Source of the DNA: Planctomycetota bacterium
GTDB lineage: Bacteria; Planctomycetota; UBA8742; UBA2392
Length of the DNA: 64,000 nt
Direction of reading: 5' to 3'
NCBI GenBank assembly: GCA_003576915.1
Contig: QEVF01000003.1
Coordinates: forward strand, 177,737-241,736
Every line of letters starts with the position of its first letter. Position 1 is the stretch's first letter. The notes under the pieces were generated by a model. The model ran no database searches, was not told the origin of the DNA, and saw only the letters and a program-made list of their open reading frames with translations. Position numbers and translations under genes: made by a program. This document shows, piece after piece, positions 16,967-55,008 of the stretch.

Positions 16967-17018
16967 ACAAGCTATGCTGCCGCGCACTGGGCCACTGGTT
17001 TTCAATCACGGAGATGCC

Positions 17019-17999
17019 ATGCGCTTTATCCTGCTGGCCCTGTTGTTGTTTGCTCCCCTGGTCCGCGCCCAGACTCAGGGTTCGCCTGCCCCTGACTTCA
17101 CCATGGGCGGCCTCAGCGCCTACAGCGACGCCACCACCCGCGCCGACTGCCTGGGCAGTGTCATCGTCATCAAGATCTGGGGCATCACGTGAGCGCCCTG
17201 CCTGCGGCAGTTGCCGCACCTGCAGGAAGTGTGGGAGAAGAACAAGGCGCGCGGCTTGCGCGTGTTTGCGGTGGAAGGCGACGGTCTGACGGCGCTTGAG
17301 AACTTCGCCTTTGCGGGCGAAAACAAGTACACATTTCCGATTGTGACCGCGTCGGAGAGTTCGCTGGCGAGCTGGGACATCAAGACGATGCCCAACACGT
17401 ATGTGGTGAACGCCGAGGGCCTGCTGGTGTTCAAGGGCTCCGAGGGATGGGACGGCATCGTCGAGAAGGAACTGGCCCGGCGCCCCTACACCGGCCTGAA
17501 CAAGGACAAGGTCGAGAAGGACTGCGAGAAGGCGGCGGCGGCCTTTGGCAAGGGTGATTACGTCAAGGCGGCGGAGTTGGCCAAAGCAGTAGTGGAAGGC
17601 AAGCCCTCGGAGGCCGCCGTGGCCGATGCACAGATGATCATCGAGGCCTGTGCCGCCACGGAGCAGAAGCTGCGGGCGGCGGCGGACCTGGCCAAGGGCG
17701 AGAAGCGTTACGCCGATTGCCTGGAGGCCCTGGACAGGCTGGCCTCGGGCTTCAAGGGCACGGAGAGCGGCACGAAGGCTGAAGCGGAGGCCAAGGAGTT
17801 GCGCAAGGACAAGGACGTAAAGAAGGAGTTGGGCGCCTGGCAGGCCCTGCGCCAGGCCCTGGAGTCGAACAAGAAATTGAAGAAGGCCGAGAAGGTGAAG
17901 GCGCTGCGCGGCGTGCAGAAATCGCAGGAAGGCACGGAAGCCGGCGCCAAGGCCAAGGAACTGGCCACGGCCATCGAGGGCTCAAAGTACTTCCGCTGA
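17019..17999 (+). CDS. Selenocysteine-containing exported thioredoxin/TlpA-like protein (in-frame TGA)
   Basis: Read through an in-frame TGA at 17190-17192 this is one 326-residue protein. It has a signal peptide (MRFILLALLLFAPLVRAQ), a TlpA/AhpC-type thioredoxin fold opening with SPAPDF, the active site WGIT-Sec58-APC61, the cis-Pro block TMPNTYVVNAEG, then a charged helical tail of about 160 residues. In TlpA proteins the motif is WxxWCxPC, so Sec replaces the first redox cysteine. The start ATG has GGAG upstream. A stem-loop right after the TGA fits a bacterial SECIS. A paralog with the same TGA and the same total length lies at 49828. Read as stops, the TGA would leave a 57-residue fragment ending just before the active site. 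It probably acts as a periplasmic thiol-disulfide oxidoreductase; the tail may bind partners. Confidence 0.88.
17197..17226 (+). promoter_or_regulatory. Candidate bacterial SECIS element (selenoprotein 1)
   Basis: The element begins 4 nt after the TGA. The lower stem CCTGC (17197-17201) pairs with GCAGG (17222-17226). After a 1x3 internal loop comes a 6-bp upper stem, TGCGGC (17203-17208) with GCCGCA (17213-17218), capped by loop AGUU. The loop G is at 17210, 18 nt after the last base of the TGA, within the spacing known for SelB-binding elements, which need a G in the first two loop positions. It lies inside the coding region. Confidence 0.75.
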
Positions 18000-18079: not shown

Positions 18080-18985
18080 CTACTTCTTGTTGGCGTCCTG
18101 ATATTTCTTGAGGCGTTGCAGGTAGAAGTCCGTGAAGGGGTCGCCTTCGAGCCCTTCGAAATCCGTCCAGTCGGCGTGGGCTCGGTCGAGCTTTTTCTGG
18201 TCGTCGGGTGAGAGTATCCGGCCGATGGTCTGGCGGTTCTTCTTCTTGATGTCCTCCAACGCCTGGGCGTAGCTGCGGTTGTCAGCGTCGCCCGGCACGC
18301 GGGTGTTGGCGAGGTCGGCGAAGAGATTGAGCAGTCGGGCCTGTGCGCCCTCGGCGCCCATCTGCGAGGCGATGAAGGCATCAATTACCTCTTCCCCGAA
18401 GTTGCGACCCTCTGCCGTGGGCACTTCCAGCAGTTCGAGGATCTCCTTCTTGGACTTCAGAATCTCGTCCTTGACGGCCTGTTTCTCGGCCTCGCTGGCG
18501 CTGAGGCGGGCGATGGCCTGGTCGAAATTCTTGGTGGGCGCGTTGGCCGCCTGTTCCTCGGCCAGCTTCTTTGCAGCCATCTCGGCGATGCGCTGTTCGT
18601 CCACGGCGCCGCCGCCCTGGCCCTTGCGTGCTTCGTCCATGGCCTCGGTCTTTACGCTCTCGACGCGGGTCTCGACGGCCGCGATGCGCTTTTCCAGGGC
18701 GGCCTTTTCCTCGCCGGAAGCGGCCTTGGCCAGTTCAGCCTTCAATGCCGACAGCTCCTCCTGCACGCTGCGCTCTCCGGCGGCGCCCTCGCGTCCCAGG
18801 CGGGCCTCCAGCCGCGCCAGCCGCTCCTGGAGGCGGGTCTGATCGAGCCTGGCCTCCTCGCGGGCGTCACTCAGTTCGGTCTTGGTACGTGCCAACTCGG
18901 CGCGCAGGGCTTCCATTTCGCGCTGGTCGCCGCAGCCCAACGCCGCAAGCGGCAGCGCCATGGCCAGCAAGAGCAGTGGTTTCAT
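18080..18985 (-). CDS. Coiled-coil lipoprotein, tandem paralog A
   Basis: A 301-residue lipoprotein (lipobox LAALGC, Cys18). Residues about 20-160 form a long charged coiled coil (RLQERLARLEARLG and similar heptads). The C-terminal about 130 residues are shared with the neighbouring gene at 19002: TKNF(D/E)xA, EVPTA(E/G)GR, (R/K)ILSPxD and HADWxxFE followed by DPFT. No known family is recognised. It is the downstream member of a tandem pair, 16 bp from the paralog. Likely role is a periplasmic or outer-membrane structural or adaptor protein (inference). Confidence 0.7.
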   Translation of the reverse strand: MKPLLLLAMALPLAALGCGDQREMEALRAELARTKTELSDAREEARLDQTRLQERLARLEARLGREGAAGERSVQEELSALKAELAKAASGEEKAALEKRIAAVETRVESVKTEAMDEARKGQGGGAVDEQRIAEMAAKKLAEEQAANAPTKNFDQAIARLSASEAEKQAVKDEILKSKKEILELLEVPTAEGRNFGEEVIDAFIASQMGAEGAQARLLNLFADLANTRVPGDADNRSYAQALEDIKKKNRQTIGRILSPDDQKKLDRAHADWTDFEGLEGDPFTDFYLQRLKKYQDANKK

Positions 18986-19001
18986 GGGTTCTCCCCGGGG
19001 A

Positions 19002-19694
19002 CTACTTGCCGTCTTTCTTGCGCGCCGTCTTGTTCACACGGGCCAGGTAAAGCTGGGTGAAGGGGTCGTCCTCGCCCAGTTCAAACTCCGACCAGTCCGC
19101 GTGGCAGGCATCCAGGCGCTTGCGGTCGGCGGGCGAAAGGATCTTCGCAATGGTCTCGCGATTGACTTTCTTGGATTCCTCAAGGGCTTGCAGGTAGCTG
19201 CGTTTCTTCTCGTCGCCGGGCACTTTTTCCGTGCTCAGGAACAGGATGAGTTTCTGGAACTCCTCAGCGGCACCTTCTTCCTGATCCTGCATCTTGACGA
19301 GACAATCGATGACTTCTTCGGCGGGAATGCGGCCGCCTGCCGTGGGCACCTCCAGGGTTTCCACCATCGCCTTCTTGCACTTCAGGATGGAGTCGCGGAT
19401 GGCTGACTTCTCGGCGTCGCTGATATCCAGCTGGACCATGGCCTCTTCGAAGTTCTTGGTGGCCGTAACCTCCGCAGGGGAGGCCCCCTTTTCAAGTTTG
19501 GCCAGGCGGGCCTCGAGTTCAGCCAGCTTCTTCTTCAGCGCCGCCACTTCCTTTTCAAGTTCAGCCACGCGTGAGGCGTCGTCCCTGGGTTGTGTGGAGG
19601 GTGCATCGGTCTCGCCGGCGTAAACGCGACCGGGCGGACAAACGGCAACGAGAGAAAAGGCCAGCAGGGAGGTCGCAAGGCTCAGCGCTTTCAT
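19002..19694 (-). CDS. Exported coiled-coil protein, tandem paralog B
   Basis: A 230-residue protein with a signal peptide ending around VYAGE, a short coiled coil (VAALKKKLAELEARLAKLE) and the same C-terminal domain as its neighbour at 18080. The shared motif KILSPADRKRLDACHADW followed by DPFTQLY sits at the same distance from the end. Unlike paralog A it lacks an obvious lipobox at the cleavage site and has a coiled coil about 100 residues shorter. The pair arose by tandem duplication (inference from the shared domain). Function unknown. Confidence 0.7.
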   Translation of the reverse strand: MKALSLATSLLAFSLVAVCPPGRVYAGETDAPSTQPRDDASRVAELEKEVAALKKKLAELEARLAKLEKGASPAEVTATKNFEEAMVQLDISDAEKSAIRDSILKCKKAMVETLEVPTAGGRIPAEEVIDCLVKMQDQEEGAAEEFQKLILFLSTEKVPGDEKKRSYLQALEESKKVNRETIAKILSPADRKRLDACHADWSEFELGEDDPFTQLYLARVNKTARKKDGK

Positions 19695-49827: not shown

Positions 49828-50808
49828 ATGAAGACGCTGGCATGGGCATTTCTCCTGGCCGCGCTGAGTCTGGCTGCGCCCCTGAGTGCGCAGCTCAAGG
49901 GCAAGCCGGCGCCGGATTTCTCGGCGGGTGAAAGTTTGACGGCAAGGCAGGACCACCGCACCCTCGCGGACTGCAAGGCTGAGGTCGTCCTGATCAAACT
50001 GTGGGGCATCAAGTGACCGCCCTGTGTGAAGGCGTTGCCTTCACTCCAGGGTCTCTGGAACGAATACGGAGGTAAGGGTCTCAACATGTTTCTGCTTGAG
50101 TCCCAGGGCACCGAGGAAGGCGCCCTGAAGAAGTTCCTTTCGGACCGCGGCATCACGGCGCCGGTTTACAAGGGCGGCCTGAGCGGCTACGACGGTGATA
50201 ACGGCCTGCCTTTCACCTACGTGATCGGCGTGGACGGCACGGTGGTGTTCGAGGGTCGCGGAGACTACCACTCGGTGGTCAAGAGCGAGATGGCCAAGAT
50301 CAAGTACCCCGGCCTGGGCAAGCTGGAAGTGGCCAAGGGCCTTGAGAAGGCCGCCATGAGCTTTGTCGAGAAGCAGTTCGCCAAGGCCATCGAAGACTGC
50401 AACAAGGTGATCGAGAAGGGCAAGGACGAAGCGGCGGTCGAAGACGCGAAGTTCATCATTGATCGCTGCAACGCCGAGGGCGCGAAGATTCGCGCCAACG
50501 TGGACAAGGCCAAGGAAGAAAAGCGCTACCTCGACGCGTTTGCCGGCCTTGAAACCCTGGCCGTCGGCTTCAAGGGTATGGAGCTGGGCGATGCGGCTGC
50601 GGCTGAACTCAAGGAGCTGAAGAAGGACAAGGAAGTCAAGCGCGAGGTGGATGCCGCGACCGCCCTGCAGCGACTGATCGAAAGCCAGAAGACGGTCAAG
50701 AGCAAGACGGACCGGGCCAAACAGCTGCGCGACTTTGCCAAGAAGAACGACGGCACCCGCGCGGCTGAAGACGCCAAGACGCTGGCCGATCAGATTGAGG
50801 CGGGTTAG
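49828..50808 (+). CDS. Selenocysteine-containing exported thioredoxin/TlpA-like protein, paralog 2 (in-frame TGA)
   Basis: Read through the TGA at 50014-50016 this is a 326-residue protein, the same length as the paralog at 17019. It has a signal peptide (to about LSAQL), KPAPDF at the start of the thioredoxin fold, the active site WGIK-Sec63-PPC66, and FTYVIGVDG at the cis-Pro strand. The final about 150 residues are charged helices (KGLEKAAMSFVEKQFAKAIED; LETLAVGFKGMELG) that match the paralog segment LDRLASGFKGTESG. The ATG at 49828 has GGAG upstream. A SECIS-like stem-loop follows the TGA. Downstream is a Cys-type thioredoxin lipoprotein with WCPYC. Likely a periplasmic redox enzyme; substrate unknown. 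Confidence 0.88.
50020..50051 (+). promoter_or_regulatory. Candidate bacterial SECIS element (selenoprotein 2)
   Basis: The lower stem CCCTG (50020-50024) pairs with CAGGG (50047-50051). After a 1x2 internal loop with a U comes a perfect 8-bp stem, GTGAAGGC (50026-50033) with GCCTTCAC (50037-50044), capped by loop GUU. The loop G (50034) is 18 nt after the TGA, identical to the first element. The U in the internal loop on the 5' side recalls the bulged U of known SelB targets. Confidence 0.78.
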
Positions 50809-50968: not shown

Positions 50969-51706
50969 ATGTCCACGATGGTCCAACGCAGTCTCAACCT
51001 CGTCCTCGCCCTGGCCTTGGGCTCGCTCGTCGTGGCCGGCTGCACGCTGGCTTCCGAGAATCCCGAGTCTGGCTACGGCACAGACGCCTCGGGCAACGAA
51101 ACCTACAAAGGCCACAACGTTTCCAAGTACCATCCGCGCCGCGCTTCGAGCGAGGAACCGGAGACGCCCAAATCCGGCGGCGGTGAGGTGTGCCCCCTGC
51201 CGCCCACGGCCGAAAAGGACGTGCTCCAGAAGTTCAAGGTGGGCGACCTGTTTCCTGACTTCGTCCTCAAGGACGTCGTCAGCGGCAAGGAAGTCAAACG
51301 CAGCGAGCACGGCAAGGGCCACTATCAGATGATATTGATGTGGGCCTCCTGGTGTCCCTACTGCCGCACCGCGCAGGAGAAGTCGGCCAAACCCATCTTC
51401 GAGGAATTGAACAAGGACGGAAAGACCCGCCTGGATGTCATTGGCGTGGGGGTCAACTTCCTGGACGACACTCCGGCGGCCCAGAAGACCTTCATCCAGA
51501 GCAACAGGATTCCGTGGACCTGCGTGTTTGACCAGGACGCCCAGGTGAAGGACGGCATCGGCAGCGACTTCATTCCGGCGGTGATTCTGCTTGATGAAAG
51601 CGGCAAGATTGTCACTTACGGCTACTACATGGACGACTACGCCCGTAAGCTCAACAACTACCTGCGCGACGCCTGCGAGTTCAAGGACAGGAACCCTGGA
51701 AAGTAG
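50969..51706 (+). CDS. Thioredoxin/TlpA-like lipoprotein (Cys form)
   Basis: A 245-residue lipoprotein with lipobox VVAGC (Cys24 when starting at ATG 50969). After a linker of about 60 residues a TlpA-type fold opens with VGDLFPDFVLKDVVSG. The active site WASWCPYC has both cysteines, followed by VGVNFLDD and the cis-Pro block DFIPAVILLDESGK. It is a membrane-anchored periplasmic thiol-disulfide oxidoreductase. It lies downstream of the Sec paralog but has its own leader of 112 bp after the terminator. An ATG three codons later is an alternative start. Confidence 0.85.
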   Translation: MSTMVQRSLNLVLALALGSLVVAGCTLASENPESGYGTDASGNETYKGHNVSKYHPRRASSEEPETPKSGGGEVCPLPPTAEKDVLQKFKVGDLFPDFVLKDVVSGKEVKRSEHGKGHYQMILMWASWCPYCRTAQEKSAKPIFEELNKDGKTRLDVIGVGVNFLDDTPAAQKTFIQSNRIPWTCVFDQDAQVKDGIGSDFIPAVILLDESGKIVTYGYYMDDYARKLNNYLRDACEFKDRNPGK

Positions 51707-51777: not shown

Positions 51778-54700
51778 ATGCCTGAAGCAGATCCCATCCT
51801 CGCCGAACACAAGACGCTGGGCCCCTACACCCTGATCAGGAAACTGGGCGAAGGCGGCATGGGAGGTGTTTATCTGGGCCGCCACAACGTGCTGCACGTC
51901 GAGCACGCCATCAAGATCATCCGGCCCCGCATGGCAGCCGACCCGCAGCTTGTCGAGCGCTTTCTGCGCGAGGCCCGCCACGCGGCGAGGCTGATTCACC
52001 CCAACATCGTGCAGGTGCTGGCCGCTGATGTGGCCGACGGCCTGTACTACCTGGCCATGCAGTTCGTGCCGGGCCAATCCCTGGCTGACGCCGTGGCCAA
52101 GGGCAAGCTCTCGCCCCACCGCGCCACCCGCTACATTCATATGTCGGCTTTGGGCCTGGCCTACGCCCACAAGAAGCAGATCATTCACCGCGACATCAAG
52201 CCCGGCAACATCCTCATCGACGAAGACGACAACTGCAAGATCACCGACTTCGGCCTCGTGCGCGACATGACCGCCGACGACACGGGCCAGAACAACCTGA
52301 CGCAGACCGGCCTGATCATCGGCACGCCCCATTTCATGCCGCCCGAACAGTGGCACGGCGAAGGCGTGGACCATCGCAGCGACATCTATGCCCTGGGCGT
52401 CACCCACTACCACCTCATCACACGCAGCTATCCTTACCCCGGCCGCACTCCGCCCCAGATTCTGGGCCTGCTCATGCAGGGGCGGCCCGAGCCCCTGAAG
52501 AAGTTCGCGCCAGCCTGCGACGACGACCTCTGTGCGCTCATCGCCAAGGCCATGCATGTCGATCCCGCCCAGCGTTATCAGAGCGCGCTGGAATACGCCC
52601 AGGCCATCGACAAGTGGTGGGCCGCCCATCCACCCACGGAGGCGGAGTCCGCCCAACTGGCCCTGGCCGCCGGCGAGGGCGGCGGCACCCGTCTCGTCAG
52701 CCCCACCCAGCTGCGCACCGGGCCGCAAAGCAGCGCGGCAGCGGCCTCCTCGGGCTCCTCGCGCGAGGGGGTGGTGCAGCCCGGCGTCACGCTTGTGGCC
52801 GTCACGCCGCCAGCCACGTCGGCGGCAGCAACTTCGGCGGCTCTTGCCGGCGCGACGCGGGCCAACCAGGCTTCGGCCCCGGCTGTTTCGCAGGCCACCT
52901 TGGCGCCTGCCAGCGCGTCGGGCACCCCCACGTTCACCCAGGGGCCCGTCACCATCGTTCAGGAAAGCTCCAAGACCGGGCTTCTGGTGCTGATTGCCCT
53001 CATTGCCATTGCCGCGCTGGCCGTAGGCGCCTATGCGGCGTTCTCCACGGGCAAGAACGGGGGCAACGAGCCGGTGTCGAAGGGTGACACGGGCAAGCCC
53101 CCGGCTCCCGCGCCCGAGTTCAGCCTGGCCCTGCCTTCCACGGAAGCCACGGCCGACGCTCCCCTGTTCACGTCATCGGCCAGCTACGTCATTGAGGGCA
53201 GGAGCAACGTGCCCGTCACGCTCAACGGCAATCCCTACAAGCTGGGAGATCCCGTCCCGCTCAAGCCCAGGCTCAATGTGCTCAAGGTTTCGGCCAGGCT
53301 TGGAGAAGACAGCGCCCAGCGCGAACTGCATGTGTTTCTCGACCAGCAGGCCCCCGAACTGGCCTGGCGCCAGTTTGATGAGGCCAGGGGCGGCGTGTTG
53401 CCCACGGCGGAACGCAGCGTGAGCCTCGTCGGGGTGGCCACCGACGACGACCCCCAGACCGAAATCCTCTGCACGATCGGCAACGTGGTCCGGCCGCCCC
53501 TCATCGTCGACAAGGGCGGGGCGTTCAGCATCCCCGTGCAGGTGGGCGAAGAACCCGTGTTCGTCGAGCTGTGCGCCCGGGATCGCGTCGGCAACAAGTC
53601 GGAGGCCCGACGCATCGAGATCGTGCCCGACCGGCTCGAACTCGCCCTCAACTGGTTCGACCTCAAGGGCGAGCGCACGGTCTGGAGCCCCCAGGAGGTC
53701 GTCAGCCTCAAGGGCAAGCTCAACAAACAGCGCGGCTGCACGCTCACCCATGAGGGCAAGCCGTTGACGCTGGCCGCTGACGGCAGCTTCACGCTGGAAA
53801 AGACGCTGCCCGCCGGACGCCACAGGGTCGCCGTCGAGGCCGCCGACTGGCTCAAGGGCAGCCTCAGCTCCGAGCTGACGGTTGTGGTGGACCTTGAGGC
53901 GCCGAAGTTCCTCGATCTCGCGCCCGCGGCCGGGGACGCGCTGCTGGCTGATGCTTTTCCGTTTGAAGTGAAAGTGTCGGGGCGGCTGGATGACGCCGAA
54001 GCCCGCCTGAAGCTGGGCCAGGAGACGCTCAAGCTCGAGGGCGGCAGGTTTGAGAAGACGTTGTCGGTGAATGAGGCGGGCGAGGTGAAGCTGGAGTTTG
54101 TGGCCAAGGACCTCAATGATCGCGAAACCCGGGTCAGCCACAGCTTCAGCGTCAGGTTGCGCCGCTACAAGCCCCTGGGCAAGAACCCCCAGGGCTTCAT
54201 GGAGTACGAGCGAGTCAGTGACGGCATGGTCATGATCGAACTGCCCGCCTCGAAGTTTGTCCAGGGCGTGGCGGAGGGACTGCCCGACGCCCCAAGGCGC
54301 GAAGTCGAGCTTTCCGGATTTCTCATCGGCAAGTTCGAGGTCACCAACGACCAGTTTGCGCGCTTCCTCAACGCCCGCGCCGTCAGCCCCGCCGAAGCCG
54401 TGCAGCAGGGTCTGATCGCGCGCAGCGGCGAGGGCTTCCTGCACCTCGCTCACGACGGCAAGTCCTGGATGGCTGAAGAGGGCTTTGGCAACTTTCCCGT
54501 TGTCAACGTGCCCTGGAAGGGCGCCGATGCCTACTGCCGCTGGGCCGATGACGGCGGTTCCCTGCCCACCGAGGCCCAGTGGGAACTGGCCGCGCGCGGC
54601 AGCGACGCCCGGGTCTATCCCTGGGGCGCCGACCGCCCCAACGGCGAGCGCAGCGTGTTCAAGCGCAGCGGCTATGCGGGCATCCAGAACGTGGGACGCG

Positions 54701-55008
54701 CGGCCAAGGGCGCTTCGCCCTGCGGCGCGCTGGATATGGCCGGCAACGTGGAAGAGTGGTGCTTCGACTGGTACGACGACACGGCATACACCCGCGGGGG
54801 CAAGGACCCACTGGTCAAGGACAAGCCGTCAACGTCTGACCGGCGTGTCGTGCGAGGCGGCAGCTTTGAAACGGATGCCGCCTCGGAAGTCAGGCCCAGC
54901 GACAGCGACGCCGCCAGCGACCTGCGCACTTTCTTCCGCGGCCGGCGCGCCCCGGCCAGCGTTTCGGAGTTCCGCGGGTTCCGTTGCGCAGCGCGCAGCG
55001 CGCAATAA
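51778..55008 (+). CDS. Ser/Thr protein kinase fused to a formylglycine-generating-enzyme-like domain
   Basis: A 1076-residue membrane protein. The kinase domain (about 14-280) is complete: GEGGMGGVYLG (P-loop), HAIKII (Lys46), IIHRDIKPGNILI (catalytic Asp), ITDFGLVRD and GTPHFMPPEQW. An Ala/Ser-rich linker and one membrane helix (about 400-422) follow. Residues about 440-810 form beta-sandwich-like repeats. The C-terminal FGE-sulfatase (SUMF1) domain (about 815-1075) shows FLIGKFEVTNDQFARFLN, PVVNVPWKGADAYCRW, LPTEAQWELAARG, MAGNVEEWCFDWY and VVRGGSF. The outer part may sense or bind, as in related planctomycete proteins. The PP2C at 26816 is a possible opponent. Confidence 0.92.
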   Translation: MPEADPILAEHKTLGPYTLIRKLGEGGMGGVYLGRHNVLHVEHAIKIIRPRMAADPQLVERFLREARHAARLIHPNIVQVLAADVADGLYYLAMQFVPGQSLADAVAKGKLSPHRATRYIHMSALGLAYAHKKQIIHRDIKPGNILIDEDDNCKITDFGLVRDMTADDTGQNNLTQTGLIIGTPHFMPPEQWHGEGVDHRSDIYALGVTHYHLITRSYPYPGRTPPQILGLLMQGRPEPLKKFAPACDDDLCALIAKAMHVDPAQRYQSALEYAQAIDKWWAAHPPTEAESAQLALAAGEGGGTRLVSPTQLRTGPQSSAAAASSGSSREGVVQPGVTLVAVTPPATSAAATSAALAGATRANQASAPAVSQATLAPASASGTPTFTQGPVTIVQESSKTGLLVLIALIAIAALAVGAYAAFSTGKNGGNEPVSKGDTGKPPAPAPEFSLALPSTEATADAPLFTSSASYVIEGRSNVPVTLNGNPYKLGDPVPLKPRLNVLKVSARLGEDSAQRELHVFLDQQAPELAWRQFDEARGGVLPTAERSVSLVGVATDDDPQTEILCTIGNVVRPPLIVDKGGAFSIPVQVGEEPVFVELCARDRVGNKSEARRIEIVPDRLELALNWFDLKGERTVWSPQEVVSLKGKLNKQRGCTLTHEGKPLTLAADGSFTLEKTLPAGRHRVAVEAADWLKGSLSSELTVVVDLEAPKFLDLAPAAGDALLADAFPFEVKVSGRLDDAEARLKLGQETLKLEGGRFEKTLSVNEAGEVKLEFVAKDLNDRETRVSHSFSVRLRRYKPLGKNPQGFMEYERVSDGMVMIELPASKFVQGVAEGLPDAPRREVELSGFLIGKFEVTNDQFARFLNARAVSPAEAVQQGLIARSGEGFLHLAHDGKSWMAEEGFGNFPVVNVPWKGADAYCRWADDGGSLPTEAQWELAARGSDARVYPWGADRPNGERSVFKRSGYAGIQNVGRAAKGASPCGALDMAGNVEEWCFDWYDDTAYTRGGKDPLVKDKPSTSDRRVVRGGSFETDAASEVRPSDSDAASDLRTFFRGRRAPASVSEFRGFRCAARSAQ

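Follow-up and report, generated by a model that had tools for sequence, protein, structure and literature searches.

Relation to described families

Selenoproteins of the Prx/TlpA-like kind with selenocysteine (Sec) in a UxxC motif have been known since 2005 (PMC1088965, PMC13188914), and Sec use by planctomycetes is likewise already known (PMC4807772). The gene analyzed here, at 17019-17999 of a 64,000-nucleotide stretch of planctomycete DNA (the window), appears to be of this kind: with the Prx-like UxxC selenoproteins (PF00578) it shares an AhpC-TSA type fold, a predicted Sec as the first residue of UxxC, and a SECIS-like element directly downstream. It differs from them, as they are described, in a predicted eight-helix tail of about 160 residues, in predicted export, and in the presence of at least six TGA-containing paralogs in a single planctomycete genome.

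Three other described families are related to parts of the protein. ResA/TlpA proteins (NF002854; PDB 1st9, 2h1b, 4nmu) have the same fold over residues 20-153 and the same active-site position, but here Sec would take the place of the first Cys, an extra helical tail is present, and a membrane anchor is not evident; the product scores 55.6 bits against NF002854, below the cut-off of 170. The VPGUxxT thioredoxin-like (seleno)proteins, type 1 (NF041382), are selenoproteins of the same bacterial family and share the C-terminal tail, but they have another N-terminal domain and the motif VPGUxxT where our protein has WGxxUxPC (WGITUAPC); the match to NF041382 (42.8 bits, below the cut-off of 350) covers the tail only. 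Finally, the ResA-like WAxxUGC motif-containing proteins (NF041054) also combine a ResA-like, Sec-containing domain with a long C-terminal part, but carry UGC rather than UxxC, and the match scores just 20 bits (cut-off 300).

A literature search covering few subscription journals found no planctomycete family of this tailed, expanded kind, and the string “Planctomycet” has 0 occurrences in a 2026 review of prokaryotic selenoproteins. A preliminary description of the locus, made from the sequence, had called the gene a probable new selenoprotein. The selenoprotein reading is supported by the results below, but “new” must be qualified to a new architecture and a lineage expansion of a known kind, since UxxC Prx/TlpA-like proteins are on record and the tail is common with the VPGUxxT proteins. 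As far as we have found, what is new is the architecture with the tail, the expansion into paralogs and a conserved array of Sec, Cys and redox-dead genes. The family would thus add to the bacterial selenoproteome a tailed subfamily expanded by duplication, one that would be missed or split because standard annotation cuts such genes at UGA.

The gene and its in-frame TGA

The features of the locus, and of a second family member in the window, are as follows.

17010..17013, forward strand: GGAG, likely Shine-Dalgarno sequence, 5 nt before the ATG, read directly from the sequence.
17019..17999, forward strand: whole putative selenoprotein gene, from ATG 17019 to terminal TGA 17997-17999, 326 residues from start to terminal stop, with TGA 17190-17192 read as Sec.
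17019..17072, forward strand: probable signal peptide, MRFILLALLLFAPLVRAQ, from the sequence; Ala17 is invariant in the family.
17076..17477, forward strand: TlpA/ResA-like thioredoxin domain, about residues 20-153, from PF00578, ResA chains in the PDB and structure Z of 16-18.
17190..17192, forward strand: TGA, codon 58, almost certainly decoded as Sec, first position of UxxC, from the sequence and aligned relatives.
17199..17201, forward strand: Cys61, putative resolving Cys of UxxC, from the sequence; nearly invariant in A1.
17203..17218, forward strand: putative upper stem-loop of a bacterial SECIS with an AGUU loop, stem 14-19/24-29 in numbering that starts at the U of UGA.
17496..17996, forward strand: C-terminal tail of eight predicted helices, probably TPR-like, homologous to the NF041382 selenoprotein tail.
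49828..50808, forward strand: second family member in the window, with TGA 50014-50016 in WGIKUPPC and a stronger hairpin, z = -3.3.

The N-terminus of the product, MRFILLALLLFAPLVRA, resembles a signal peptide. The TGA at codon 58 lies in WGIT-U-APC, at the first Cys of the TlpA/ResA-type WxxxCxxC site, so that the motif is UxxC in place of TxxU (WGIT-U-AP-C). Pfam identifies an AhpC-TSA domain (PF00578) at residues 21-137 (44.2 bits; cut-off 26), and Redoxin is matched as well. The ORF reading, the PF00578 match and the AlphaFold2 model described below agree with the preliminary description of a frame that passes through TGA 17190-17192 with a signal peptide before it and a thioredoxin fold after it.

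Could UGA be globally reassigned, as in genetic codes 4 and 25? When the whole 64-kb window was scanned for in-frame TGA codons with long coding-like runs on either side, only five sites emerged, and a redox motif is found at just two of them, 17190 and 50014, both in members of this family. Moreover, 17019-17999 itself terminates at a TGA, beyond which homology does not extend, and other genes also have TGA as their stop codon. Global reassignment, for which no support was found, is therefore of negligible probability, as had been noted at the outset.

Within 4 kb of the gene, no conserved neighbours were found beyond those in one close relative (96% identical). Two neighbouring genes on the reverse strand at 18080-19694 encode long stretches that are helical and coiled-coil-like; the genes are apparently tandem duplicates (48–49% identical over about 169 residues) and have no Pfam match.

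Conservation of codon 58

Searching 60 related genomes yielded many matches with exactly one internal TGA, and where this TGA was read through it fell at the same codon every time. Among 80 distinct aligned members, codon 58 is TGA in at least 53 and Cys in at least 12; by site class there are 52 UxxC, one UxxS, 11 CxxC and one CxxS, and 15 members have neither Sec nor Cys at the position, 13 of those having Asp. These state counts are minima, as they leave out some members and at least one Sec copy (in genome G015). The placement of the TGA at the first Cys of the TlpA CxxC, first proposed from WGIT-U-APC in this one gene, is thus shared by 53 of 80 relatives, and the alignment of homologs contains both TGA and Cys at codon 58 without frameshifts.

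A nonsense mutation, a pseudogene or a sequencing error at TGA 17190-17192 would leave the stop itself as the sole evidence in its favor. The 53 relatives with TGA at the same codon span many genera, have intact frames and conserve residues on both sides of it, and the region shows selection at silent sites (see below); we regard such a reading as refuted by conservation across species and its probability as vanishingly small.

Close relatives were identified by a genome-contig scan, whose profile was made from a tighter set of members since 21 diverse members were too divergent. They are uncultured Planctomycetota MAGs, the nearest being JABARW010000019.1 with 96% identity; a search of viral contigs found no relatives. 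In a tree of family members, made by a quick method and containing long branches, Sec, Cys and residue-less members fall in distinct clusters, with 9 changes between states compared with 25 expected by shuffling. One member, L061 (G001:C46), has U-G-P-S, where Sec is kept and the resolving Cys is replaced by Ser; this protein would need an outside resolving thiol.

The stem-loop downstream of the TGA

A stem-loop immediately after the TGA had been part of the preliminary description, and we find it with a folding energy of -22 kcal/mol (z = -2.0, 7 of 200 shuffles being as stable). By itself, this hairpin is only moderately unusual; it becomes decisive in comparison across the family. The apical loop, AGUU or GUU, occupies positions +20/21 to +23 relative to the U of UGA, and a small apical loop with a G is a published hallmark of bacterial SECIS elements (PMC1088965).

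We compared the local stem with a 3-5 nt loop against random synonymous recodings of the same peptide. At p < 0.05, the stem stands out in 25 of 41 TGA genes, in 0 of 11 Cys genes and in 0 of 14 genes with neither residue. The combined p-value of 2.6e-19 treats related genes as independent and is not quotable as it stands, as combined p-values overstate independence when the tested sequences are related. TGA and Cys genes are not distinguished by plain folding energy over the 50 nt that follow the codon (mean -16.0 vs -16.7 kcal/mol); only the local upper stem, measured against synonymous recoding, distinguishes them.

The codon usage and covariation of the stem point in the same direction. 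Leu65 is encoded by TTG in 25 of 26 cases, while TTG makes up 11% of Leu codons in these genes; TTG is used here because U22-U23-G24 form part of the loop and the closing pair. The Pro66 codon varies with codon 63: CCT accompanies AAG (AAR), and CCG accompanies CGG. Across 16 distinct AGUU-loop sequences, C-G, A-U, G-C and U-A are all seen at pair 16/27 without a break, and both G-C and C-G at pair 17/26; the signal is lost when the partner is slid by 1-3 columns. The compensatory changes in the stem fall partly at silent sites, and such synonymous covariation makes it possible to call Sec codons cleanly from sequence alone in uncultured genomes. Taken together, the hairpin looks like a bacterial SECIS. 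The exact hairpin is not clear in the most divergent subfamilies (WATWU, WKIHU), which may use another SECIS form.

Selenocysteine machinery of the genome

The window belongs to G000, an uncultured Planctomycetota MAG of 3.9 Mb in 59 contigs (87% complete). The genes whose absence was to count against a selenoprotein, selA, selB, selC and selD, are all found in it: selA scores 548.8 bits (cut-off 267.9), selB 312 bits (cut-off 242) and selD 385.8 bits (cut-off 125), and a tRNA-Sec with a UCA anticodon (73.7 bits, cut-off 47) is located a short distance downstream of selA. The selD gene has its own in-frame TGA, in GAGUGCK, which we take to be the classic Sec site of SelD.

The distribution of TGA copies follows the machinery. 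Among the 43 genomes with a listed best match, 28 of the 37 that have selB or tRNA-Sec contain TGA copies, compared with 0 of the 6 that lack both (Fisher p = 0.0008); when the window's own family is set aside, the corresponding numbers are 12 of 21 and 0 of 6 (p = 0.02). In two genomes with TGA copies, G016 and G048, selB is present and tRNA-Sec was not detected, possibly owing to incomplete assembly.

Unusual tRNAs with a UCA anticodon that decode UGA as another residue exist in some bacteria, and Cys is the residue in homologs that lack the TGA, so that decoding of codon 58 as Cys or another residue by such a tRNA has to be considered. We judge it very improbable: the only strong UCA tRNA found in G000 scores as tRNA-Sec and lies beside selA, selB and a Sec-type selD are present, and the SECIS-like hairpin, for which plain Cys decoding would have no need, is confined to TGA genes. 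Codon 58 of 17019-17999 is thus almost certainly read as Sec, as judged from comparative sequence evidence.

Predicted structure and the C-terminal tail

The AlphaFold2 model, based on an alignment of 42 members, has a mean pLDDT of 93.1. The modelled thioredoxin fold is of the TlpA type, its active site lying where the first long helix begins, and residues 18-154 best match ResA-type oxidoreductases (Z 16-18; top 18.1, rmsd 2.2 over 133 residues), with Prx chains aligning at a Z of about 15. Since Sec often serves peroxidases, these Prx alignments and the AhpC-TSA and Redoxin matches in Pfam could also describe a selenoprotein that works mainly as a Prx-like peroxidase. The motif, UxxC at the TlpA/ResA position, is neither TxxU nor TxxC, and ResA-like proteins give the best structural matches; we consider a predominant peroxidase function unlikely, although less remote than the decoding alternatives above, and a periplasmic thiol-disulfide oxidoreductase is the likely function suggested by fold and motif.

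The helical tail of about 160 residues noted in the preliminary description is predicted as eight helices, and when modelled alone it reaches a pLDDT of 93.7. No match above background to a known PDB fold was obtained for the tail; the weak best matches are the TPR proteins BamD, YbgF and P58IPK (Foldseek E >= 0.13, Z <= 9.1), and Pfam reports a TPR in 1 of 42 members. Based on the model, the tail is probably TPR-like. In sequence, it matches the C-terminal part of NF041382 in 39 of 42 members. Two related genomes encode true NF041382 members with TGA; these share the tail (32% identity over 158 residues to one such member) but not the N-terminal domain. As the tail is common and the N-terminal domains are different, one kind of tail has been combined with two distinct Sec domains.

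Proposed mechanism

Our proposal is that 17019-17999 encodes an exported selenoprotein in which the AGUU stem-loop directs Sec to codon 58, the UxxC site performs periplasmic redox chemistry, a DsbD/CcdA-type protein re-reduces it, and the tail picks the partner; we place the probability of this reading at roughly 0.93. Sec insertion is its well-supported step, and we infer export, periplasmic UxxC chemistry, re-reduction and partner choice from fold, motif and gene content. UGA would be decoded by tRNA-Sec(UCA) with SelA, SelD and SelB, for which the comparative data make a strong case. After export, the Sec58 selenolate would act as the nucleophile together with Cys61 in the TlpA/ResA-like UxxC site, reducing periplasmic disulfides or possibly small oxidants. 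Re-reduction may proceed through a DsbD/CcdA-type membrane protein; G000 has one DsbD_TM gene, at C27:145605. The tail might serve as a TPR-like binding module that chooses the partner protein.

Paralogs and the gene array

G000 contains seven full-length family members, at least six of them with TGA. A redox-dead paralog of G000, at G000:C14:169900-170883 (L049, L102), has DIGS instead of UxxC, and redox-dead members group in a single 13-member clade of the tree. In six related genomes (G003, G009, G010, G013, G014 and G015; loci L066, L071, L075, L084, L086 and L087), family members form a same-strand array in the fixed order Sec (UxxC), Cys (CxxC) and redox-dead with Asp. With Sec, Cys and redox-dead paralogs adjacent to one another, nature provides a setting in which to ask what an exported oxidoreductase gains from selenium.

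The occurrence of UxxC, CxxC and redox-less paralogs suggests a set of partner-specific oxidoreductases together with non-catalytic relatives. A broader scenario, which we put forward tentatively and hold to be somewhat doubtful, is that within this planctomycete lineage one exported module, ResA-like domain plus tail, radiated into a partner-specific redox network, with Sec, Cys and redox-dead forms in a conserved three-gene array, and that the tail was also joined to the unrelated VPGUxxT Sec domain. If so, the tail would be a docking module, mainly of periplasmic selenoenzymes.

Two other thioredoxin-like genes of G000, L110 (C52:99432) and L108 (C8:41673), have an in-frame TGA in WATWUGPC and are likely further selenoproteins of this genome. 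The second family member in the window (49828-50808) is followed directly by 50969-51706, which encodes a putative lipoprotein whose thioredoxin-like domain has an ordinary CPYC motif. A fusion of a protein kinase with an FGE-sulfatase (formylglycine-generating enzyme-like) domain is encoded at 51778-55005.
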